Assembly: GCF_030268965.1 (NCBI RefSeq)
Contig: NZ_BSSE01000002.1
Coordinates: forward strand, 1-64,000
Direction of reading: 5' to 3'
Source of the DNA: Microtetraspora sp. NBRC 16547
GTDB taxonomy: Bacteria; Actinomycetota; Actinomycetes; Streptosporangiales; Streptosporangiaceae
Length of the DNA stretch: 64,000 nucleotides
Below are positions 9,182 to 22,095 of this stretch, piece after piece. Position numbers and translations under genes: made by a program. Below the pieces are notes generated by a model. That model was not told the origin of the DNA, did not search any database, and saw nothing but the letters and a program-made list of their open reading frames with translations. Numbering within the stretch: the first letter of the stretch is position 1; every line of letters starts with the position of its first letter.

Positions 9182-10198
9182 TCAGTCTCGGCTGGATTCG
9201 AGATAGCCGGTTAGATAGGTCAACGACGCGGCGATGTCCTCACCGAGGCCGTGTGGTCGGCGCAGTTCGTCGACGAAGATGGCGATGTCGGCGAGCCGCC
9301 ACCAGAGAGGATAGAGAGCGAGGCCGGCCAGTGCGACGGTTCGGCCGGTGGCACGGGTGTAGCGGGCGAGTACGTCGTCGACGTCGCCATCTGGGTCCTC
9401 GCCGAGCATGCGGGAGAGGGCGGGGGTGAGCATCCACAGGTCCCGCTCTGGCGGAGCGATCTGCACGGTGCCCCAGTCGATGAGCAGCAGTCCAGCCGGG
9501 GTACGCATGACGTTGCCGGGGTGCGGTTCGCCGTGCGTGACCACCCAGCCCGGCGCGGTGTTTTGTACTTGGTCGACTCGCCGGTCGAAGTCGGCGAGCA
9601 ATCGTTGGACTTGCCCGGCATGGACAGACAGCAGCTTACGGGCTGGCTCGGCATAAGGCCCGTCGGTCCACTCCCGATCGAGGTCCTGCAGCGCCTCCTC
9701 CAGCTTGTCCCGACCGGGCAACACCAGGTCAGCCCGTGATGCGGTGTCCGCCACGATCGGGGTTGCCTTGTGCAGCTCGGCCAGCAGGTCGATTACCTCT
9801 ACGCGGTCCTCGGGCCTGTGCGCGCCAAACTGCCCGGCGGCACCCGCCACCATTGGAAACACCGACAGGGCGTACCGCGAGGTTAGCCGCCAGACCGCGG
9901 CGTCAGTCGCGGTCGGGATCGGCGCGAGGACGAAGTCGAGCCCTGCGTCCCGGCACAGTGCCAGGGCGGCACCGTACGACCGGCCGAGCCGGTTGAATGC
10001 GTCATCACGTTCAGCGACCTCAACGCCGAGATCGTCAACCTTGACGAACCAAGCCGTCCCGCGCCGATCCACCACCGACCAGTGGTAACTGCCCGCGCCC
10101 ACCGGGAGGTACTCAACCGAATGGGGCTCAATGTCCCAGCCCTCGGCCAGTGCCACCACCAGTTCGGCCTCCGCCAGACCCCCCGGTCTATCCCTCAT
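9182..10198 (-). CDS. Aminoglycoside/spectinomycin phosphotransferase-like kinase
   Basis: A 338-residue APH/choline-kinase-fold protein. It shows the catalytic loop VVTHGEPHPGNVMRT (an HGxxHxxN Brenner-type motif) at about residues 220-235 and the metal-binding LLIDWGTV just after. The N-lobe has GAGSYHWSVVD and WFVKVDD with the ATP-positioning Lys. Such proteins phosphorylate small molecules, sometimes antibiotics; the real substrate cannot be told. The ATG at 10198 (MRDRPGG) is chosen because relatives start there. The frame stays open to 10531, but that part is repeat B DNA. No ribosome binding site is obvious, so a leaderless start is possible. It is flanked by repeats on both sides. Confidence 0.85.
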   Translation of the reverse strand: MRDRPGGLAEAELVVALAEGWDIEPHSVEYLPVGAGSYHWSVVDRRGTAWFVKVDDLGVEVAERDDAFNRLGRSYGAALALCRDAGLDFVLAPIPTATDAAVWRLTSRYALSVFPMVAGAAGQFGAHRPEDRVEVIDLLAELHKATPIVADTASRADLVLPGRDKLEEALQDLDREWTDGPYAEPARKLLSVHAGQVQRLLADFDRRVDQVQNTAPGWVVTHGEPHPGNVMRTPAGLLLIDWGTVQIAPPERDLWMLTPALSRMLGEDPDGDVDDVLARYTRATGRTVALAGLALYPLWWRLADIAIFVDELRRPHGLGEDIAASLTYLTGYLESSRD

Positions 10199-10395
10199 AC
10201 GCCGGTATTCTGCCTCACTCGCCGCAGAGTCACAGATCATTCTAGAGAGGGCTCTTGAGGCCTTATGGCCGAAATGCGGGTTGCTTTCTCCTCGCCGGTT
10301 CTGCCTCCGGCGGGGGCCTCGGCTCCGGGATGGTCGCCCGAGCGTGAGCCGGTCTGTAGCTGGCTGGGGTGGGAGCCTGATCGTCCCGCCTGCCA

Positions 10396-10496
10396 CGACC
10401 CAGGCAAGCCCAGCAGACCATCTCCTACGGCTCAAGCCCGTCTGTGACGGTTGGCGTCCGATGATCGAGGAACGGCGACCGGCTCGCGTACACGCG
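10396..10496. repeat. Dispersed repeat B, copy 2
   Basis: Matches 1293-1394 in the same orientation. It sits between the phosphotransferase gene and a transposase N-terminal remnant, with the junction to the latter near 10545. Confidence 0.75.
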
Positions 10497-10550
10497 TGGG
10501 TGAACCCCTGATGATGCCTCGTGACTGCCACCCCCGGGCGATGAGAACGG

Positions 10551-13327: not shown

Positions 13328-13551
13328 CGGCCGGCGACGGGCACGTCCGGTTCTGAGGGGGCCGGGGCGCAGCAATGCGCTCCGGCTACCCGGCAGGTGA
13401 TCAGGGAAAGGGCATGCGGAGGTATGGGAGCCCGCAGCCCGTCAAGCGGTAGTTCTCCGCGTACTCCTGCGTGTCCAGCATCCTGTAAGTGCTCTGTAAG
13501 AGAGGCTGCCTATCTTCACCTCAGTTTCCGTCTTTGACCAAGGGAGCCCTC

Positions 13552-14625
13552 ATGCACCCCCGGACCCGGCACCTGGCTCTCCCCCTGTGCGTCCTGGCCG
13601 CCGTCGGTCTTGCCGGCGGCTTGCCCGCCGCCGCCCCGGCGCAGGCCGCCGATGACGTCACCTACGTACCGCTCGCCGGTGCGGGTGCCTACGCACGCGG
13701 CATCGTCGACTACTGGGTGAAGAACAGCGCGGCCAACCTCATCAAGGCAACGCCGTACAAGCCCACGGTCACCGTCAGGCCATCCACCGGCAGTGAGCCG
13801 ACTCCTGACGGTCCTCCCGGGCTGGTAGGGGAAAACATCACGCCGAAATCGCCGCAGAACACCAGGAATCCTCCCAGGAGCGTGGGAAAGGTGTTCTTCC
13901 TCGATATCGACGGCAACCCGCGCTGGTGCAATGCCACGGCGATGCTGTCGCAGTACAAGAACGTCGTCGCCACGGCCGGGCACTGCGTGTACGAGCCCAC
14001 GAGCCAGACGTACCACTCCTACTGGGTGTTCATCCCCTGCTATTACGAGGGCAAGGCCCCGTTGGGCATCTATGTCGGCAAGCATGGGTACGCCCACAGC
14101 GACTTCAACTCCCGCCGGGACAGCCGCCGCGACTACTCGTTCGTCACCGTCCACAACGGTGTCGACAGCAACCTCAGCGACGTCGGCCGCCTCGGCGACA
14201 ACGCCGGCGGCCAGGGCCTGGCCTACAACCAGAAGGTCGGCGACAACGTCCGGGTGTTCGGCTATGCGAGCGGACCGCTTCCCGGCGGAGACCTCACCGG
14301 AAAGACTCTGAAGTGGACCTACGGTCCGAGTTTCGGCGTGGTCGCCTTGGACTGGGAAAAAGACCGCTGGGGAATCCCGAGCATTCTCAGGGCCAAGAAG
14401 TTGGTCGGTGTCAGTTCCGACCTCCCAGGCGGGGGCCTCTCGGGGGCGGCGTGGCTGCTCGACTACAACTCCGGGATCCGCACCGGCTATCTGAACGGCC
14501 TGACCGTCGGGGTTTTCGACACCGACGGCGACCACTGGACCGACACCGTCGCTTCGTCCTACTTCGACAGCGCGACGTATCGGGTCTACCAGGCCGCGGC
14601 CGCCCTCCAGTCCGGCGCCATCTGA
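13552..14625 (+). CDS. Secreted trypsin-like serine peptidase
   Basis: A 357-residue protein with a Sec signal peptide (residues 1-33, ending AQAADD), a propeptide-like region to about 105, and an S1/V8-type peptidase domain. The triad is visible as H144 in TAGHC, D194 in RRDYSFV and S297 in GGGLSGAAWL; the Ser box is GxSGA rather than the usual GxSGGP. Cys residues around the His (RWCNATAM, GHCVYEP, IPCYYEG) suggest disulphides. The ATG at 13552 follows GGGAG by 6 nt. With the C39-like peptidase upstream it forms a small cluster of extracellular proteases. A strong hairpin follows 70 bp after the stop. Confidence 0.88.
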   Translation: MHPRTRHLALPLCVLAAVGLAGGLPAAAPAQAADDVTYVPLAGAGAYARGIVDYWVKNSAANLIKATPYKPTVTVRPSTGSEPTPDGPPGLVGENITPKSPQNTRNPPRSVGKVFFLDIDGNPRWCNATAMLSQYKNVVATAGHCVYEPTSQTYHSYWVFIPCYYEGKAPLGIYVGKHGYAHSDFNSRRDSRRDYSFVTVHNGVDSNLSDVGRLGDNAGGQGLAYNQKVGDNVRVFGYASGPLPGGDLTGKTLKWTYGPSFGVVALDWEKDRWGIPSILRAKKLVGVSSDLPGGGLSGAAWLLDYNSGIRTGYLNGLTVGVFDTDGDHWTDTVASSYFDSATYRVYQAAAALQSGAI

Positions 14626-14698
14626 GTCGGCCCGAATGCGGCCGGGCGGGAGCCGTCCCCTGGCAGCCGAATCGTCGGAAATATAGAGAAATCTTCGT

Positions 14699-14735
14699 CA
14701 ATATGGAGCACCAGGACTCCTGGTTCTCCATATTG
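14699..14735. terminator. Long hairpin between convergent genes
   Basis: CAATATGGAG pairs with CTCCATATTG and ACCAGGA pairs with TCCTGGT, with one C/T mismatch between the two stem parts and a 1-3 nt loop. It lies between the plus-strand peptidase and the minus-strand dehydratase operon, as expected for a bidirectional terminator. There is no U-tract, which is common in actinomycetes. The rest of 14626-14871 is empty. Confidence 0.65.
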
Positions 14736-14871
14736 GTGGGCTCGGGGGCGGGCGCGGCAGGAAGGGTGCGGGTATGCGAACTTCCCATGGCCTACCGCAA
14801 TCGTGAATGTCTCCGCACCCGGGGCTGGCCCTCTCCTGCGTGGGCTTGATCGGCACCGCCGGCAAGGCGAC

Positions 14872-16200
14872 TTAGAACCATCCAGCCCGACGGTGCACGT
14901 CGAACGGCACGTACTCCGGGCGGTCGGCATGGGGAACCGGCAGGACCGGCTGGCCCATGGCCGCCGACGGCAGAAATACGGTCGCGTAACCGAGGCAGTG
15001 GACCTCGTCGCGCTGGTTGAGGCCGACGATCTCGATGGCCACCGCCGCGTATGACACGGTCCGCCCCGCTGTATCCGTCTTCTCCGCGACGTACTTGCGG
15101 ATCACCTTCCCCTTATAGATCGCCGCGTCGCCGTAGAAGATCGGCCTGCGCATGGTGGTGTACATGCGGTGCACGAACGCGTTGTCGCCCGCCCAGTTGG
15201 TGAGCAGCCGGATCGGTGCCTGCGCGCGCTGGATGCCGAAGTCGAAGGGCAGCGGCTGGCACCGATAGGGCGCGAGATGCCTGTCCTCGTGCTCGTCGTA
15301 GGGGGTGTAGGGCCATCCGGTCACGGGATGGGTCCGGGCGAAGGCCGGGTTCTGGCGAGACCGCCGGTAGGCAGGCCGGAACGCACGCACCAGGCGCGTG
15401 CCGTCCAAGGCGGCGAGGAGCCCATGGTCCAGCGACTGATAGGTCAACGCGTCGCGGATGCTGTACGGGGGCTGCACGATGTTCGGCAGCTCGTCGCCCT
15501 CGTCGACCTCCTCCCAGGACAAGACGCGAGCACCACGGCGCTGCTCCTTCTCAAGCGCCTCGCTGAGTTTCTCGATCTCAGCGGATGAGTAGTGATGGGG
15601 CTCGCGGTTGTAGAGCATCCGCTCGCCCAACCGCTCGACCGGCATCACGCGGGTCCCACCCATCTGCTCCACCGGCAGATGGATGAGGCGTCCGTAGGCC
15701 TTCGCTTTCAGCGCACCGCAGTTGGTCCAGTAGAAGTTCTCGGAATGATGGAAGATGACCTTCCCCTGCCGTCCACGGGTGACGACGAGCTCGCGGGGGA
15801 TCTTCGACGAGGTGAAACGCATTCCGGGACGCAGCACGTCGTAGAACTCCCATGCCACCCCCGACAGGAAGTTCGCCACGGGATACCCTTGCGGTCGCTG
15901 CACACCATGGTCGGCCGGAAAACGGACGTGGATGAGGATGGTCGGAGGGGCGACCTGACTGCCCAGCCAGGACCGTTCCCCATAGGCCGGATCCGTGTAG
16001 AGCGGGTTGTCCTCGCCGATGGCGTAGGCGTACCGCCGGATCAGATCCTCTGTCAAGATCAGCGCGCTGGGCACAGGGATGACGTTGGGATCCAAGGGCG
16101 GCGCGGGATGCGGCGGCGGGCGGTCCTCAGGGCTTTCCTTGTGGAGGAGTTGCCTGCTTCGCTCGATGAACTCTGCCAGGGCTTCGTCGAACGTCTGCAT
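14872..16200 (-). CDS. FAS1-like/MaoC double-hot-dog dehydratase A
   Basis: A 442-residue protein with two hot-dog halves. The first (about 40-190) carries YAIGEDNPLYTDPAYG and QVAPPTILIHVRF, the acidic and Asn-Pro hydratase signature of the FAS1-type dehydratase region. The second (about 290-430) carries RTHPVTGWPYTPYDE and AGDNAFVHRMYTTM. Family members hydrate or dehydrate acyl thioesters on CoA or ACP. It is the last gene of the operon: its ATG overlaps the upstream stop by 1 nt (TGATG). Dehydratase B upstream is a paralogue with the same layout. Together with the ACP and ligase this suggests processing of a carrier-bound acyl group. The substrate is unknown. Confidence 0.85.
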   Translation of the reverse strand: MQTFDEALAEFIERSRQLLHKESPEDRPPPHPAPPLDPNVIPVPSALILTEDLIRRYAYAIGEDNPLYTDPAYGERSWLGSQVAPPTILIHVRFPADHGVQRPQGYPVANFLSGVAWEFYDVLRPGMRFTSSKIPRELVVTRGRQGKVIFHHSENFYWTNCGALKAKAYGRLIHLPVEQMGGTRVMPVERLGERMLYNREPHHYSSAEIEKLSEALEKEQRRGARVLSWEEVDEGDELPNIVQPPYSIRDALTYQSLDHGLLAALDGTRLVRAFRPAYRRSRQNPAFARTHPVTGWPYTPYDEHEDRHLAPYRCQPLPFDFGIQRAQAPIRLLTNWAGDNAFVHRMYTTMRRPIFYGDAAIYKGKVIRKYVAEKTDTAGRTVSYAAVAIEIVGLNQRDEVHCLGYATVFLPSAAMGQPVLPVPHADRPEYVPFDVHRRAGWF

Positions 16201-17423
16201 CAGTTCTCCAGCGGTACATCGCAGGTCAGTCCTCCCCGTATGGGGAGCCTGACCGGCTTTCCATGGTCCGGCAAGAACACGACGGCGTAAGCCTCCACGA
16301 CGGGCTCGCGGAGCTGGTTCCTTCCCACCACCCGGAGAGTGATCGCGTGGTAACGGGTCCTCGCCTCATCGGTCGCTGTGTGGCGGTCGATGACCGCTCC
16401 GGTCAGCCGCAGAGCATCGCCATAGCGGAAGGGCTGAATGATGCGCACGCTCAACTGCCGCAGGAACGCGTCGTCACCCATCCAGTGCGTCACATGCTGG
16501 CCGGCGAGCGTGAACAGCAGACCTCCGGGCGCGCTGGGCCCGGAGGGGGCCGTGGCCGCCGAATCCAGCGAGGTCTCGGCCCTGTCCCAGGCCGGCCACC
16601 CGGTGACCGGATTCGTCGTCCGCCGTCCTTTGAGCTCGGCCAGCCGAGCGTGGTGCAGGTTGCCGGCTCGTACCGGGCGGCCCTCGGCGAAGACCCACAG
16701 CTCGAGGTCGGCCAGCGTCAGCGGACCCTTCAAGAGGGTCGGTGTCGTGTCCCCCACGGCGACGTCGCTCCAAAAGCGCGGGACCGCGCCACGGGAGGGC
16801 TGTTCGGTGTCCAACTCCCGCACCATTTGCTCGACGTCGGCGGGCTCGTACCGGTGGATCGAGCGGTGCGGGAACATCGAAGGGTCCTCGTCGAGCGGGG
16901 CAACCTCAACCTCCGCCCAGCCGCGCGCGAACCCTACTCCGTTGCGCTGGTATTCGACGGTGGAGCGGACGCAGGCCCGGGCCCGGTCGGCCGCGGCGAG
17001 GCGTCGGCTTACATCGCTCACGCAGACGCGCCCGGCGAGGGCGTCACCCAGCCGGACGGTGTCGTCCCAGCTGAGGTGCAACGAGCTCAGCGTGCCGGTC
17101 AGCCGGTGCTCCGTCAGGTCGAGCACCCCGGTCGAGGCGGGCGCGCGGACCGCCAGGACGAACGTCGGGGGCGCGAGCATCGTGTGGTGGACCGAGCCCG
17201 CGCCGTACTGCACATCGAGGTAAAGCGGGTTGTCATCACCCGACGCGTCGACGAACCGGCTGACATTGATCCAACTTGCCACGTCGACACCCGGTTCGAC
17301 GTCGGGGGCCACGCAGCCGATGACCCTTCTGCTCGACTGGATCAGTCGCTCGATCTCGTCGTGTTCCACAGTGTCGTCCTGCCCCACAGCAGAGGCACCG
17401 ACGCGGATACCGGTATCAGTCAT
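16200..17423 (-). CDS. FAS1-like/MaoC double-hot-dog dehydratase B
   Basis: A 407-residue paralogue of the next gene. The N-terminal half has FVDASGDDNPLYLDVQYG and MLAPPTFVLAVRA; the C-terminal half has TNPVTGWPAWDRAE and MGDDAFLRQLSVRI. The conserved DDNPLY block indicates an active hydratase fold. The ATG at 17423 is chosen because it overlaps the ligase stop (17416) by 8 nt; an in-frame GTG/ATG further up would lie inside that gene. The two paralogues may form a heterodimer, as paired MaoC-type subunits often do, or act on successive intermediates. Both ideas are inference. Confidence 0.83.
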   Translation of the reverse strand: MTDTGIRVGASAVGQDDTVEHDEIERLIQSSRRVIGCVAPDVEPGVDVASWINVSRFVDASGDDNPLYLDVQYGAGSVHHTMLAPPTFVLAVRAPASTGVLDLTEHRLTGTLSSLHLSWDDTVRLGDALAGRVCVSDVSRRLAAADRARACVRSTVEYQRNGVGFARGWAEVEVAPLDEDPSMFPHRSIHRYEPADVEQMVRELDTEQPSRGAVPRFWSDVAVGDTTPTLLKGPLTLADLELWVFAEGRPVRAGNLHHARLAELKGRRTTNPVTGWPAWDRAETSLDSAATAPSGPSAPGGLLFTLAGQHVTHWMGDDAFLRQLSVRIIQPFRYGDALRLTGAVIDRHTATDEARTRYHAITLRVVGRNQLREPVVEAYAVVFLPDHGKPVRLPIRGGLTCDVPLEN

Positions 17424-18771
17424 CACTGGTCGCCAGTTCGTCCGCAAGCCTTCCATAGTCGGTCTTGCCGGTGCTGGTCAGCGGGAGCCGATCGACGTCG
17501 AGGACGCGGATGAAACGGGTCGGTATGCCGATGAGCTCGCCCGCGTGCCGCGACAGCTCACGCCTCGACGTCGTCGCGTCACCAGCCGCCCGCGCCAGGA
17601 CCAGCCGCCCCGACAGTTCCAGGGCGGCCACCCGGCCATGTGCCACCAACAGCACCTCCAGCTCGTCGAGGTTCACGCGCTGACCGCTCAGTTTCGCCAT
17701 GCGGCGCTTACGGCCGACAATCGAGTAGAAACCCTCGTCGTCGACGCTGGCGAGGTCACCCGTCGCGAGCCGGCCGCGGTTGACGTCGCCGGAGGCGAGA
17801 TCCGCTCGCCGTCGCGCGTACCCCAGCATGACGTTGGGTCCCTCATAGAGCAGTTCCCCGTCGTCGGCGAGCGACAGGCGGCCACGGGGAACCGGCACGC
17901 CCACGCGGTCCGGCTTGTCCAGCACCCGGTCGGGCGGTACATACGCGATCCGCGCGGTCGCCTCGGTCTGGCCGTACATCACGACGAGCCGTCCGCCCCG
18001 TTCGATCATGTGATGTCCGAAGCGGAGCACCGTCTCAGGCTCCATCCGGCCGCCGGCCTGGCTCAGGGTCCGCAGGTCCGGCAGGGTGGTGTCCTCGAAG
18101 CCGACCCGGGTGAGGATCGCGTAGGTGTAGGGCACACCGGCCAAGGAGGTGCACGCGTTGTCCCTCATGGCCTCCCAGAACCGTGGCCGCACGAGGCTGG
18201 CACCAGGGAACACCACGGACGCCCCGGCGAACAGGTGGGAATTGAGGACCGAAAGCCCGTAGGAGTAATGCAACGGAAGGGCTTGCACAGCCCGTTCGTC
18301 ACCGTCGATGTCGAGGATCCGGACGATCTGTGCGGCATTGGCATCGATGTTGTGCCGGCTCAGCCTCACGTACTTTGGGCTGCCCGTGCTTCCTGACGTG
18401 CTGAGGAGGACCGCCAGCTCATCGTCTATGGGCCCGTCCGACATATGGAGCCGTTCGCAGCGGTCGCCGTCCAGCAGGAACTCGACCTGGTAGAGATCCA
18501 GGAGGCGGGCGATCGCGGCCCTGTCAGCGGCGCCGTCGACCATCATGACCGCGTGGCCGGCCGCCATCGCGCCGAGATAGGCGATGGCTGACTGCGCGTC
18601 CGGACGACACAGGCAGGCCACCAGGGACTTACGTCGGCTGGGGATGGCCGCGGCTCGCCGGAGGACGTCGGCCGCGAGCTCGGCGTAGGTCCAGCTCCGG
18701 TCGGCCCGCCTATCCACGATGGCCGTACCAGACGGTGGCCGGTCCAACCACCCCAGAAGCGCTGGTCTCAT
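17416..18771 (-). CDS. Adenylate-forming acyl ligase (AMP-binding, probable ACP ligase)
   Basis: A 451-residue ANL-superfamily enzyme that activates a carboxylic acid as acyl-AMP and loads it on a thiol carrier. The core motifs are LLSTSGSTGSPK (P-loop, about 125-137), VMYGQTEA (A5), GDLASVDDEGF (A7), GRKRRMAKLSGQRVNLDELE (A8 hinge) and LPLTSTGKTDY with the catalytic Lys near the C-terminus. It is shorter than typical acyl-CoA synthetases and similar in length to compact stand-alone adenylation domains. Its ATG overlaps the acyl-carrier-protein stop by 4 nt, so that carrier is the obvious acceptor. The acid it activates cannot be read from the sequence. Confidence 0.87.
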   Translation of the reverse strand: MRPALLGWLDRPPSGTAIVDRRADRSWTYAELAADVLRRAAAIPSRRKSLVACLCRPDAQSAIAYLGAMAAGHAVMMVDGAADRAAIARLLDLYQVEFLLDGDRCERLHMSDGPIDDELAVLLSTSGSTGSPKYVRLSRHNIDANAAQIVRILDIDGDERAVQALPLHYSYGLSVLNSHLFAGASVVFPGASLVRPRFWEAMRDNACTSLAGVPYTYAILTRVGFEDTTLPDLRTLSQAGGRMEPETVLRFGHHMIERGGRLVVMYGQTEATARIAYVPPDRVLDKPDRVGVPVPRGRLSLADDGELLYEGPNVMLGYARRRADLASGDVNRGRLATGDLASVDDEGFYSIVGRKRRMAKLSGQRVNLDELEVLLVAHGRVAALELSGRLVLARAAGDATTSRRELSRHAGELIGIPTRFIRVLDVDRLPLTSTGKTDYGRLADELATSDD

Positions 18772-19040
18772 GAGCCGGCGCGATCCTTTGACCTCAGGAC
18801 GGCGGCAGCGGAGGCGTAACTGTCGATCTCCAGCACGTCCTTCTCCCCAAGCGATACCCCGAAGGTTTGCTCAAGAGTGATGACGAGCGACATGTGGCCC
18901 AGCGAATCCCAGTGTCGATGCTGCCCGAAGACCAACGTGGTCACGTCGGTTTCGGCAGGCAGATCCAGCCCCACCTTGAAGGCCTCGGACAACATCTGCT
19001 CGAAACTGGGCCCGTCCTGCGCGGAATTCAGCGACGACAT
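18768..19040 (-). CDS. Acyl carrier protein
   Basis: A 90-residue acidic, four-helix carrier protein. The phosphopantetheine attachment site is S46 in HWDSLGHMSLV. The helix after it (ITLEQTFGVSLGEKDVLEID) and the closing YASAAAVLRSK are typical of stand-alone carriers of fatty-acid, polyketide or D-alanyl type. The ATG at 19040 is chosen because GGAG lies 8 nt upstream; a GTG-free extension to 19094 has no ribosome site. It is the first gene of the four-gene operon with ligase and two dehydratases (overlaps of 4, 8 and 1 nt). No phosphopantetheinyl transferase is in the window, so a host enzyme must activate it. Confidence 0.88.
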   Translation of the reverse strand: MSSLNSAQDGPSFEQMLSEAFKVGLDLPAETDVTTLVFGQHRHWDSLGHMSLVITLEQTFGVSLGEKDVLEIDSYASAAAVLRSKDRAGS

Positions 19041-19609
19041 TCCGGATCTCCGTTGTCCTAGCAGTCGAAATGCCTGGTGCCTTGAGCCGCCCAATTCGAT
19101 GGATGGGTCCGTACGGTATGGCCGGTGGGACGCATCCGAAACGATCGTTGGTCTTGTCCCGTGATCACCTCTCCACCAGGTTAGTCAGGTACGTACTGGT
19201 TTCTCCCCCTCAGCGCGGGGGGCTGAACATCGGTTGGTCCGCCGCCGACTCGGGTGCGGGGCCGTCAGCTGCGCTGATGCTCCCGCCGGGGTGAACGCGC
19301 CGTTGCAGTAGCGGGCCGTACGTCGGCGCAGTTCCGCGAAGCGATCGCCAGGACGCAACTGGCGTGACGTCGCGTGGAGCGCGTGGCGAGCGGCGTCGAG
19401 CATGAGTCGCACCAGGTCCGAGGGGAAGGATCTGCTTAGGCTGTCGAGATCACTCGGTCAATCAGGCCATGACGGCAGAAAGCCGGTAATCGGGGACCGC
19501 CCGGTCTCCGGCCTCGCCTGGTAGCGAAGAGATGTTGTGAGGTCCGCGGGCCGGGCCGGGGGTGTGGATTCGCCGGGGGCCGAGGGGAAGACCTGCTGAG
19601 GGAGAACCG
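19041..19609. other. Divergent promoter region between the carrier operon and the MFS gene
   Basis: The 569-bp region separates the minus-strand ACP operon from the plus-strand exporter. It must hold both promoters. A 75-codon minus-strand frame at 19185-19412 (MRLMLDAARHALHATSRQLR...) is open but lacks a recognisable family or ribosome site; I do not call it a gene. No palindrome stands out. Confidence 0.5.
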
Positions 19610-20878
19610 TTGGCCAGGGACGCGGCGGGGGAGCAGCCCCGACCACTTTGGAGGAACCGGAACTTCAACGTTTTTCTCAGCGTGCAGACCTTGTCCGTCG
19701 TGGGGGACTCCTTCTCCACTCTGGCGATGCCGCTGCTGGTTCTCCACGCGACGGGCTCCATCGTCCAGATGGGCCTGCTGACCGGCCTGGCGGGGGCCGC
19801 GTCGATCTTCACGGGGATCTTCGCCGGGGTGCTGGCCGACCGGGTGAACCGACGGGCCCTGCTGATCGCCTGCGACCTTGTCCGGGCGCTTGTCTACGCG
19901 CTCATCCCGCTCGTCTGGCTCTTCTCTCCGCAGATCTGGCTCCTCTACGTCGTCGTACCGATTGGCGCCGCCCTTGGAATGGTTTTCCAGGTCGCATACG
20001 TCACCGTCGTGCCCGGCCTCGTCGACGAGGGCCAGATCATGAAGGCCAACAGCCGTCTCTATGGGACGTACTCCATCGCGAGCATCATGGGACCCGTGCT
20101 CGCCGGTCTCGTCTCGGCGATGTACGGCCCATCCGCCGCGATCGCGGCGGACGCGGGAAGCTTCGCCGTGTCCGCCGCCGGCCTGTGTTTCGTCCGCCCG
20201 CGGTTGCGGAGCGCCACCGCCGTCGGGGATGCGTCGCCGCCCATATCGCAGGCGGGCTGGAAGGACGTCCTGGTGGGCGCGCGGTTCCTCTGGGGGCATC
20301 CGGCGCTGCGGTCGCTGACGGTCCTCCTGTCGTTCCTGACATTCCTCACCCTCGGCCTGACCGACCTGATCATCTTCCACCTGAAGCACGATCTCGGGCA
20401 GCCCGACAGTGCGGCCGGATACGTGCTGGCGTCCGCCGCGGTCGGGTCGATGGCCGCCGCCGTCTTCGCGGGTTTCGCACGCCGGTCCCTCGGATTCGGC
20501 GCCTGCTGGATCGGGTCGTACGCGCTGTGCGGTGTCGCCATCTCGTTCATCGGCCTGTCCGCGAACGTTCCCACGGTGGCGGTGCTGGCGACCGTCTTCC
20601 TCTTCTGCAGGGGCACCGCCGGGATCTGCTCCATGTCACTGAGGCAGGAGGTGACCCCGGATCGCCTGCTGGGACGTGTCACCTCGGCGTTCTGGACCAT
20701 CCACGCGGCCCTCGGCCCGATCGGCGCGGCCTTGCTGACCTGGGGGGCTGCCCGTTTCGGTGTCGCGGTCGTCTGCCTGGCGGCCGGGATCACCTGCCTG
20801 GCGATCGCCCTGTGCGCGACCTTGACCCCCATCCGCCACCCGCGCCCCGAGCTCCTGCCCGCCGAGGCCAGGAAGTAG
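19610..20878 (+). CDS. MFS exporter
   Basis: A 422-residue major facilitator with about twelve membrane segments. It has the loop 2-3 signature GVLADRVNRRALLIACDL and the repeated form FRPR/LGRVTSAFWTIHAALG in the second half, as in macrolide-efflux-type (MFS_3) carriers. The TTG at 19610 is preferred because GAGGGAG lies 5 nt upstream; a GTG at 19562 in the same frame has no such site. It is divergent from the ACP-ligase-dehydratase operon and may export its product, which is inference from position. It ends 14 bp from the convergent sigma-factor gene. Confidence 0.88.
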   Translation: MARDAAGEQPRPLWRNRNFNVFLSVQTLSVVGDSFSTLAMPLLVLHATGSIVQMGLLTGLAGAASIFTGIFAGVLADRVNRRALLIACDLVRALVYALIPLVWLFSPQIWLLYVVVPIGAALGMVFQVAYVTVVPGLVDEGQIMKANSRLYGTYSIASIMGPVLAGLVSAMYGPSAAIAADAGSFAVSAAGLCFVRPRLRSATAVGDASPPISQAGWKDVLVGARFLWGHPALRSLTVLLSFLTFLTLGLTDLIIFHLKHDLGQPDSAAGYVLASAAVGSMAAAVFAGFARRSLGFGACWIGSYALCGVAISFIGLSANVPTVAVLATVFLFCRGTAGICSMSLRQEVTPDRLLGRVTSAFWTIHAALGPIGAALLTWGAARFGVAVVCLAAGITCLAIALCATLTPIRHPRPELLPAEARK

Positions 20879-20892
20879 GCCAGACCCAAGCA

Positions 20893-22095
20893 TTAGACCC
20901 TGCCGGAGGCATCGCGGGCGAGGTGGGCGGCGCGGGTGGTGAGGTAGTCGCGTTCGGGGATGCTGGTCGTCCGGCTCGCCGCTCTGCGGTAGTCGTCGAT
21001 CGCCGCCTGGCGGTCGCCGGCCATCTCCAGCAGGTGGGCCCGGGCGGCGTAGAAGCGGTGGTTTCCGGCGAGGCGGCCGTCGGCGTCGAGCGCCTTGAGC
21101 ATCGCGAGGCCGGTCGCGGCGCCGTGCACCATGGCGGCGGCGACGGCGCGGTTGAGTGTGACCACGGGGTTGTCGGTCATCCGCTCCAGCAGGCCGTACA
21201 GCGCCAGGATCTGCGGCCAGTCGGTCTCCTCGGCCGTCGTCGCCTCGTCGTGGAGGGCGGCGATCGCCGCCTGGAGCTGGTACGGCCCGACGGAGCCCTT
21301 GGCGAGGGTGCAGGTGATGAGCGCGACGCCGTCGGCGATGGCCCGTCCGTCCCACAGGCTCCGGTCCTGTTCGGCGAGCGGGACCGGAGTGCCCCTGGCG
21401 TCGATCCGCGCGGGCCGCCTGGCGTCGGTGAGCAGCATCAGGGCGAGTAGGCCGGCCACCTCGCAGTCGTCCGGAAGCAGGCGGTGGGCCATCCGGGTCA
21501 GCCGGACCGCTTCGCGGGACAGCTCCACGCGGTGCAGGCCGGGGCCGACGCTGCTGGCGTAGCCCTCGTTGAAGATGAGGTACAGCACGTGCAGCACCGA
21601 GCCGAGCCGCGTCGCCCGCTCGTGGGGATCCGGCATCCGGAACGGGACGCCGGACGCCTTGATGCGCTGTTTGGCCCGGCTGATCCGCTGCGCCATCGTC
21701 GCCTCGGGCACCATGAACGCCTTGGCGATCTCGGCCGTGGTGAGGCCGCCCACGGACCGAAGGGTGAGCGCGATCGCCGATGCCGAGGTCAGCGCGGGAT
21801 GGCAGCACAGGAACAACATGATCAGCGTGTCGTCCCGCTCCGCCTCGCGTGCGTCCTCGGCCGGCGGTGCCGTCCGCCGTTCCGGGGGCGCCTGAGCGGC
21901 CACGAGTTCCTCCCGGCGGCGCCGCGCCTGCTCGTTGCGCACCTGGTCGGTCAGCCGGCGCTGCGCGACCTGGATGAGCCAGCCTCGGGGGTTGCCGGGC
22001 ACGCCTTGCCCGGGCCACTGGGCCACGGCGTCCAGCATCGACTCCTGCACCGCGTCCTCGGCGGCGTCGAAGTCCCCGAAACGGCGGGTGAGCAC
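20893..22095 (-). CDS. ECF-type sigma factor with C-terminal DUF6596-like domain
   Basis: A 400-residue sigma-70-related protein. Region 2 includes DFDAAEDAVQESMLDA and NPRGWLIQVAQRRLTD; region 4 includes LTTAEIAKAFMVPEATMAQRISRAKQ. The long helical C-terminal part (from LIFNEGY, about 170-400) is the DUF6596-like extension of this sigma group. Homologous-looking codons extend upstream of the GTG at 22095 (DNPIVDDLLRELAPQVVG), yet no start codon fits. The upstream GTG at 22159, which overlaps the YCII stop, would work only if one G in GCTGGAT were absent. Translation may begin at 22095, at a CTG (22152), or the gene may be frameshifted. The partner gene upstream encodes a YCII protein, the usual arrangement for this family. 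Confidence 0.82.
   Translation of the reverse strand: MLTRRFGDFDAAEDAVQESMLDAVAQWPGQGVPGNPRGWLIQVAQRRLTDQVRNEQARRRREELVAAQAPPERRTAPPAEDAREAERDDTLIMLFLCCHPALTSASAIALTLRSVGGLTTAEIAKAFMVPEATMAQRISRAKQRIKASGVPFRMPDPHERATRLGSVLHVLYLIFNEGYASSVGPGLHRVELSREAVRLTRMAHRLLPDDCEVAGLLALMLLTDARRPARIDARGTPVPLAEQDRSLWDGRAIADGVALITCTLAKGSVGPYQLQAAIAALHDEATTAEETDWPQILALYGLLERMTDNPVVTLNRAVAAAMVHGAATGLAMLKALDADGRLAGNHRFYAARAHLLEMAGDRQAAIDDYRRAASRTTSIPERDYLTTRAAHLARDASGRV

Follow-up and report, generated by a model that had tools for sequence, protein, structure and literature searches.

What is the function of a small acyl carrier protein (ACP) whose gene lies in one array with those of a ligase and two related hot-dog proteins, and how did this array reach its present place? 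The question is raised by five genes within a 64,000-nucleotide stretch of Microtetraspora sp. NBRC 16547 (contig NZ_BSSE01000002.1, positions 1 to 64,000), denoted the window below. The genes for the ACP, an ANL (adenylate-forming) ligase and two double-hot-dog proteins, dhA and dhB, run head to tail on the minus strand and are accompanied by a divergent gene for an MFS transporter. These five open reading frames (ORFs) had been described in an earlier note on this DNA, and all of them were confirmed in place, including the ACP Ser46 in HWDSLGH and the divergent MFS gene. The window was compared with an Actinoallomurus metagenome-assembled genome (MAG; G055, locus L064), a one-contig genome from another genus of the same family (G221) and three congeners (G001-G003). 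By a slight preference, we read the five genes as a mobile unit that constitutes a carrier-protein acid-modifying module with export. Its features are as follows.

18768..19040, minus strand: ACP, small acyl carrier protein of 90 amino acids with phosphopantetheine Ser46, ATG at 19040 (conserved WDSLGH, sub-threshold Pfam match)
17416..18771, minus strand: ANL ligase of 451 amino acids, Ser170 at the amine-binding Asp position of A domains (Pfam, PDB match, alignment)
16200..17423, minus strand: dhA, first double-hot-dog (MaoC/FAS1-DH-like) protein, 407 amino acids from ATG 17423 (Pfam, model, alignment)
14872..16200, minus strand: dhB, second double-hot-dog protein, 442 amino acids (Pfam, alignment)
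19610..20878, plus strand: divergent MFS transporter, ORF from GTG 19562, TTG 19610 preferred (Pfam; 86% amino acid identity in G221)
14873..20878, no strand: shared, transferred unit, dhB stop to MFS stop (comparison with G055, G221 and congeners)

Two of the three core junctions overlap with certainty, ACP/ANL by 4 nucleotides and dhA/dhB by 1 nucleotide, as the earlier note had it. The 8-nucleotide ANL/dhA overlap given there holds only if dhA starts at ATG 17423; the longest frame starts at 17456, and a start near 17387 is possible. The longest dhA ORF of G221 begins at 17757, 28 nucleotides beyond the ANL end at 17785 (G221 coordinates), so that the true dhA start may lie further downstream and ANL and dhA may not overlap. 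A scan of 14500-21200 gave no promoter-like and three terminator-like sites, compared with shuffle means of 0.6 and 1.8. The transporter matches Pfam MFS_1 (E 7.5e-26) and scores 193.4 bits against TIGR00900, below the cut-off of 319.6. Its start is more likely TTG 19610 than GTG 19562, because the sequence LAxDAAGEQP is common to the window and G221. Approximately 335 nucleotides between the ACP and MFS genes (window 19244-19578) have no counterpart in G221, where the matching stretches lie 12 nucleotides apart.

Transfer of the unit and selection on its genes

Over window 14873-19108, which starts at the dhB stop and takes in 68 nucleotides upstream of the ACP start, the window and G055 are 94.6% identical at the nucleotide level, compared with 86.3% at the rpoB locus. 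G221 covers all five genes, with 90.9% identity over 14873-19243 and 90.0% over 19579-20878 (the MFS gene), at an rpoB locus identity of 89.4%. The rest of the window shares only short matching pieces with the G055 and G221 stretches; the flanks are unrelated, and the unit ends at the outer stop codons or close to them. A search with the dhB profile revealed no dhB orthologue in the congeners G001-G003. Synteny with all three resumes at 20900-20917, just past the MFS stop. On the left, the neighbouring stretch 13444-14669 has its match on another contig of G002. Among the congeners we found none in which both flanks are joined (empty site), and between 14601-14880 and 20871-21150 there is no direct or inverted repeat of at least 9 nucleotides.

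The ratio pN/pS is 0.37 for the four genes compared between the window and G055 (p 5.8e-13 versus neutrality) and 0.29 for the five genes compared with G221 (p 7.7e-38 versus neutrality). Single-gene values in these two pairs range from 0.16 to 0.54, the window-G221 ACP alone not being significant (p 0.12). As the identity of G221 lies near its rpoB value, it is chiefly G055, together with the lack of relatedness in the flanks, that argues for transfer. Taken together, the shared block, the unrelated flanks, the edges near the outer stops and purifying selection indicate that the unit is functional, not debris, and has been horizontally transferred. In G221 (L078, L079) the unit is located between glycosyltransferase/CDP-glycerol glycerophosphotransferase and Stealth-type genes.

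Carrier protein, ligase and double-hot-dog pair

With 18.0 bits, the ACP stays below the Pfam cut-off of 20.8, and the 44 PF00550 matches in its own genome do not include it. Residues W44-D45-S46-L47-G48-H49 are invariant in 7/7 orthologues and provide a phosphopantetheine serine of the DSL type, and the ACP profile matches solved ACPs in the PDB (best E 7.4e-6).

Enzymes of the ANL family are characterized by AMP-binding core motifs and a catalytic C-terminal lysine. Both are present in the ligase, which matches Pfam AMP-binding (E 5.8e-43) and whose motifs TSGSTG, YGQTEA, TGD and GK436 are invariant in all seven orthologues. Its best PDB sequence match is 3wvn (VinN, E 3.6e-36), and many of its model matches are coenzyme A (CoA) ligases. 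According to part of the text of PMC11253843, an aspartate of amino-acid A domains (equivalent to Asp235) binds the substrate amine. Our alignment places Ser170 of ANL where VinN and the amino-acid A domains have this aspartate, and a serine occupies the site in 7/7 orthologues. In this respect the ligase departs from the amino-acid A domains of nonribosomal peptide synthetases (NRPS), which makes an amino acid an improbable substrate.

Pfam FAS1_DH_region is found in both dhB (E 2.5e-8) and dhA (E 2.9e-7), and the two proteins form sister clades in a tree of 26 rows, including 11 remote relatives, that has a midpoint root only. Hydratases and dehydratases of the MaoC or R-specific type carry an Asp-His dyad in the motif GD-x-NP-x-H of the C-terminal hot dog. 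Our alignments do not show this dyad motif in dhA or dhB: at its positions dhA has Asp in 7/7 and His in 0/7 sequences, and dhB has Asp in 8/8, His in 6/8 and Arg in the other two, without the NP. An Asp is kept in both halves of both proteins. The His is missing from 11/11 remote relatives as well, so that the wider family as a whole is characterized by its loss. The dhA model (pLDDT 57.6) displays a double hot-dog fold; it matches 4v12 (E 2.0e-13, TM-scores of 0.41/0.50) as well as MSMEG_6754, MeaC and itaconyl-CoA hydratase, with thioesterases lower in the fold list. The model of dhB reached a pLDDT of 47.4, and the fold search was made with the dhA model only. Modelling thus likely settles the fold of dhA, but not its reaction. 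AmcE, a hot-dog enzyme first assigned as a dehydratase (DH), decarboxylates an ACP-bound acid, as stated in part of PMC10698177, and this precedent advises caution against a literal reading of 'dehydratase', which for dhA and dhB is a putative label.

Distribution and larger clusters

A scan of genome contigs for dhB yielded eight loci, with identities of 94% in two Actinoallomurus MAGs (one partial), 76% in Umezawaea tangerina, 74% in Streptomyces fumanus, 72% in Streptomyces sp. NEAU-Y11, 69% in Micromonospora chokoriensis, 68% in Mangrovihabitans endophyticus and 39% in a SAR202 MAG. Whole-genome searches with the dhB profile (E 1e-60) detected it in 2/394 genomes of the class and 4/341 of the family (own genome in both, G055 in the family count), in 2/392 genomes of the S. 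fumanus genus (including the known G699) and in 3/350 of the M. chokoriensis family (including the known G701 and G702). These searches added the loci G221, G771 and G1140; G451 holds a partial copy (residues 283-441) and is apparently the contig of L070. dhB is rare and scattered. Plasmid records with dhB matches numbered 29, with identities of 28.8-33.4% among the 10 listed, and one plasmid record matched dhA (27.5%). A phage origin was rejected, no phage record being found for dhB, as was a defence system, since the five proteins had no PADLOC match at E 0.01. At L071 9989-13356, the SAR202 (Chloroflexi) MAG has its dhB relative followed closely by an MFS gene; the locus yielded neither a separate dhA nor a match to ACP or ANL. 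At L057 7378-12022, next to a glycosyltransferase gene, a relative of ANL occurs together with an ACP-like ORF, a FabG-like short-chain dehydrogenase/reductase (SDR) and homologues of LuxE and LuxC; this group may be a further acyl system based on a carrier.

Ten loci were compared, namely the window, G055, G221, Umezawaea, S. fumanus, NEAU-Y11, G771, M. chokoriensis, Mangrovihabitans and G1140; L070/G451, whose contig begins inside dhB, and the SAR202 MAG were left out. Gene presence was determined by tblastn; a simple gene caller gave opposite-strand ORFs over the core or the DegT gene in S. fumanus, NEAU-Y11, Umezawaea and G771. ACP, dhA and dhB occur together in 10/10 loci and an ANL orthologue in 9/10. 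The order ACP-ANL-dhA-dhB recurs in eight of the ten, and the arrangement is therefore not due to chance. The ANL of M. chokoriensis is only 40% identical and oriented away, and G1140 has no ANL orthologue in the 40 kb covered, its best match (28%) being the A domain of a protein that is NRPS-like by eye.

In seven of the ten loci a DegT aminotransferase gene directly follows dhB, and the core lies inside a larger cluster. Compared with the NEAU-Y11 protein, DegT identity is 65-80% in four aligned orthologues and 66-91% by tblastn in the six other DegT-bearing loci. The Lys of an SKNL motif, which we take to be catalytic, is kept in all five aligned proteins. The DegT match of M. chokoriensis contained one TGA in the genome search; the ORF itself, of 422 amino acids, is open. 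Four loci (S. fumanus, NEAU-Y11, G771 and Mangrovihabitans) add a gene resembling myo-inositol-phosphate synthase (MIPS), together with two HIBADH-like and one SDR reductase, FemAB, TylF and MFS genes. The three AroB-type loci (Umezawaea, M. chokoriensis and G1140) add AroB-like cyclases, two sugar-type aminotransferases and ATP-grasp genes, and two of the three encode a protein that is C-domain-like by eye. All four MIPS-type loci also encode a protein of approximately 202 amino acids without a Pfam match (L067 3577-4185, L066 3420-4028, L069 13703-14359); by eye it resembles a TOPRIM/primase fragment, which is odd for such a cluster.

A cyclase and an aminotransferase near the core, as expected of an aminocyclitol-type system, were thus seen in 7/10 loci and not in the window, G221 or G055. 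Neither these nor the other tested cluster genes were matched in the stretches of the window (64 kb), G221 (39 kb) and G055 (21.5 kb); the G055 contig ends 267 nucleotides after dhB, so that absence there means only that DegT does not follow directly. The best DegT homologue elsewhere is 35% identical over part of its length in the own genome and 41% in G055, G221 having been searched only within its stretch. The earlier note's picture of a ligase, an ACP, a hot-dog pair and an exporter without KS (ketosynthase), thioesterase, reductase or transaminase is accurate for the window unit and is reproduced in G221. As a general description it does not stand, as the seven DegT-bearing loci have the core in larger clusters. 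The note would have yielded to a larger known cluster: larger clusters do exist, but none matching a described one was found. Embedded beside DegT and MIPS-like or AroB-like genes, the core has the appearance of a portable acyl module belonging to pathways that are probably of the aminocyclitol type; in the window, G221 and G055 it stands by itself. The DegT enzyme of the seven loci may aminate the remodelled chain, or else a cyclitol. In the corresponding part of PMC10698177, the aminotransferase AmcC acts on the AmcB-bound chain.

Elsewhere in the window we noted a DDE_Tnp_1_4 transposase near the contig start (1645-3141) and an APH-type kinase (9182-10531) remotely like APH(9)-Ib (188.8 bits versus a cut-off of 675). 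The 378-amino-acid protein encoded at 13489-14625, which has no Pfam match, is matched by 19 to 38 stretches in each of the genomes G001-G003 and G221, and by no stretch of G055. An ECF-type sigma factor with DUF6596 (20893-22095) opens the stretch that is syntenic with the three congeners.

Proposed function and relation to known systems

The mechanism we infer would begin with adenylation of a carboxylic acid, probably not an amino acid, by ANL and its loading onto the dedicated holo-ACP. dhA and dhB, probably as a hetero-complex, would then act on the alpha,beta positions of the thioester, most likely by dehydrating or hydrating it, and the product or a derivative of it would exit via the MFS exporter. 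In other actinobacteria, the core together with DegT would give an acyl or amino-acyl unit to larger, probably aminocyclitol- or sugar-type products. Several observations weigh against this proposal. The main gap is the release step, as the stand-alone form has no known releasing enzyme or acyl acceptor. The canonical hydratase His is missing in dhA (0/7) and replaced by Arg in 2/8 dhB sequences, the structure models are weak (pLDDT 47.4 for dhB, 57.6 for dhA), and a precedent, AmcE, is a hot-dog 'DH' that acts as a decarboxylase (PMC10698177, in part). An MFS orthologue lies beside the core in only one of the nine other loci (G221, 86% amino acid identity); no ANL lies beside the ACP in G1140, and that of M. 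chokoriensis is the 40% relative. Finally, the identity of G221 (90-91%) is hardly above that of the rpoB locus (89.4%).

The hot-dog pair might not dehydrate at all, but decarboxylate, hydrolyse or add an amine to the ACP-bound chain. Such chemistry would agree with the loss of the canonical His in dhA and its partial retention in dhB, with the AmcE precedent (PMC10698177, in part) and with a releasing step that is otherwise missing; we nevertheless consider it somewhat unlikely, as the nearest sequence and fold matches, though remote, include hydratases and dehydratases, with thioesterases lower in the list. The unit could also be an acyl donor only: an unlinked acyltransferase, encoded by the host itself or in another cluster of the genome, would transfer the acyl group from the ACP to an amine or hydroxyl. 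The FemAB-like gene in 4/4 MIPS-type loci, the C-domain-like protein (by eye) in 2/3 AroB-type loci and the lack of a thioesterase among the five genes (Pfam) are in line with this arrangement. FemAB- and C-domain-like genes were not found in the window, G221 and G055 stretches, however, unlinked acyltransferases not having been searched for, and the DegT homologues of the own genome are only distant (best 35%, part of length); we regard the donor role as rather doubtful. We would be equally hesitant to see in the five genes a minimal complete mobile pathway, composed of a ligase, a carrier, a non-canonical heteromeric hot-dog enzyme that both converts and releases the acid, and an exporter, with core plus DegT appearing, as part of the same proposal, to have been recruited at least twice into otherwise different cyclitol-type clusters.

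Two further explanations were considered. Ordinary CoA-dependent acid catabolism with an incidental ACP could account for the many CoA ligases among the ANL model matches, and an ANL match is also present in 9 of the 11 stretches that contain remote dhB relatives. It is improbable, however, given that the ACP lies upstream of dhA in 10/10 loci, with or without ANL between them, and overlaps ANL in the window, and that, by Pfam, none of the five genes encodes an acyl-CoA dehydrogenase or a thiolase. The stand-alone form might also be a functionless, decaying remnant of a larger cluster that has lost its aminotransferase and scaffold genes, as 7/10 loci carry DegT and more and the tested cluster genes are not in the window, G221 and G055 stretches. 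This we judge highly improbable: the core frames are intact in all three, pN/pS is 0.29-0.37 with p from 5.8e-13 to 7.7e-38, and the same edges recur in different backgrounds. An acid-modifying module with export remains the interpretation that we favour. Whichever chemistry applies, a portable acyl module of ACP, ligase and two double-hot-dog proteins recurs in genomic settings of three kinds, and with narrow search terms we could match none of them to a described product in the open-licence PMC literature. This marks both the small operons and the larger clusters as worth expressing, and the five genes offer a clean test bed in which to study how a non-canonical hot-dog pair works on a carrier protein.

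How does the module compare with systems already described? Isonitrile lipopeptide (Sco-type) systems contain a non-haem iron isonitrile-forming oxidase and a flavin dehydrogenase, neither of which was found by Pfam among the five genes. No KS, as would be expected of type II fatty acid or polyketide synthases (PKS), was found by Pfam among the five genes and 11 further window ORFs. MSMEG_6754, MeaC and ChsH1/H2, of the MaoC type, share the double hot-dog fold (dhA model) with weak sequence matches; here, in contrast, two adjacent paralogues of approximately 400-440 amino acids occur, dhA without the catalytic His, and no KS or ketoreductase partners. The MIPS- and AroB-type clusters contain orthologous ACP, dhA and dhB in 7/7 and ANL in 6/7, and differ by the added DegT, cyclases and reductases and, according to type, FemAB or a sugar aminotransferase with ATP-grasp.

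The vicenistatin pair VinN/VinL is likewise a ligase with a separate ACP, VinN being the best PDB sequence match of ANL. VinN binds a beta-amino acid through Asp230 (PMC11253843, in part), whereas ANL has Ser in 7/7 orthologues and no PKS accompanies the window unit. In the cispentacin/coronafacic acid carrier system (Amc), as covered in part of PMC10698177, the dedicated ligase AmcH loads a small acid on the dedicated ACP AmcB, and the chain carried by this ACP is processed by a hot-dog enzyme and an aminotransferase. Amc differs by its KS-CYF heterodimer (AmcF-AmcG) and a hydrolase, which are absent among the five genes, and the scores against Amc models fall far under the cut-offs (ANL 67.4 of 370 for AmcH, ACP 16.8 of 80 for AmcB); a cispentacin-type assignment, which would call for the AmcF-AmcG pair, thus finds no such pair among the five genes. 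Our search of the open-licence PMC literature, with its narrow terms, found neither the gene set nor the larger clusters described. Collectively, the set itself is not described in the literature searched, but its parts, and the principle of a dedicated ligase that serves a dedicated ACP, are known.

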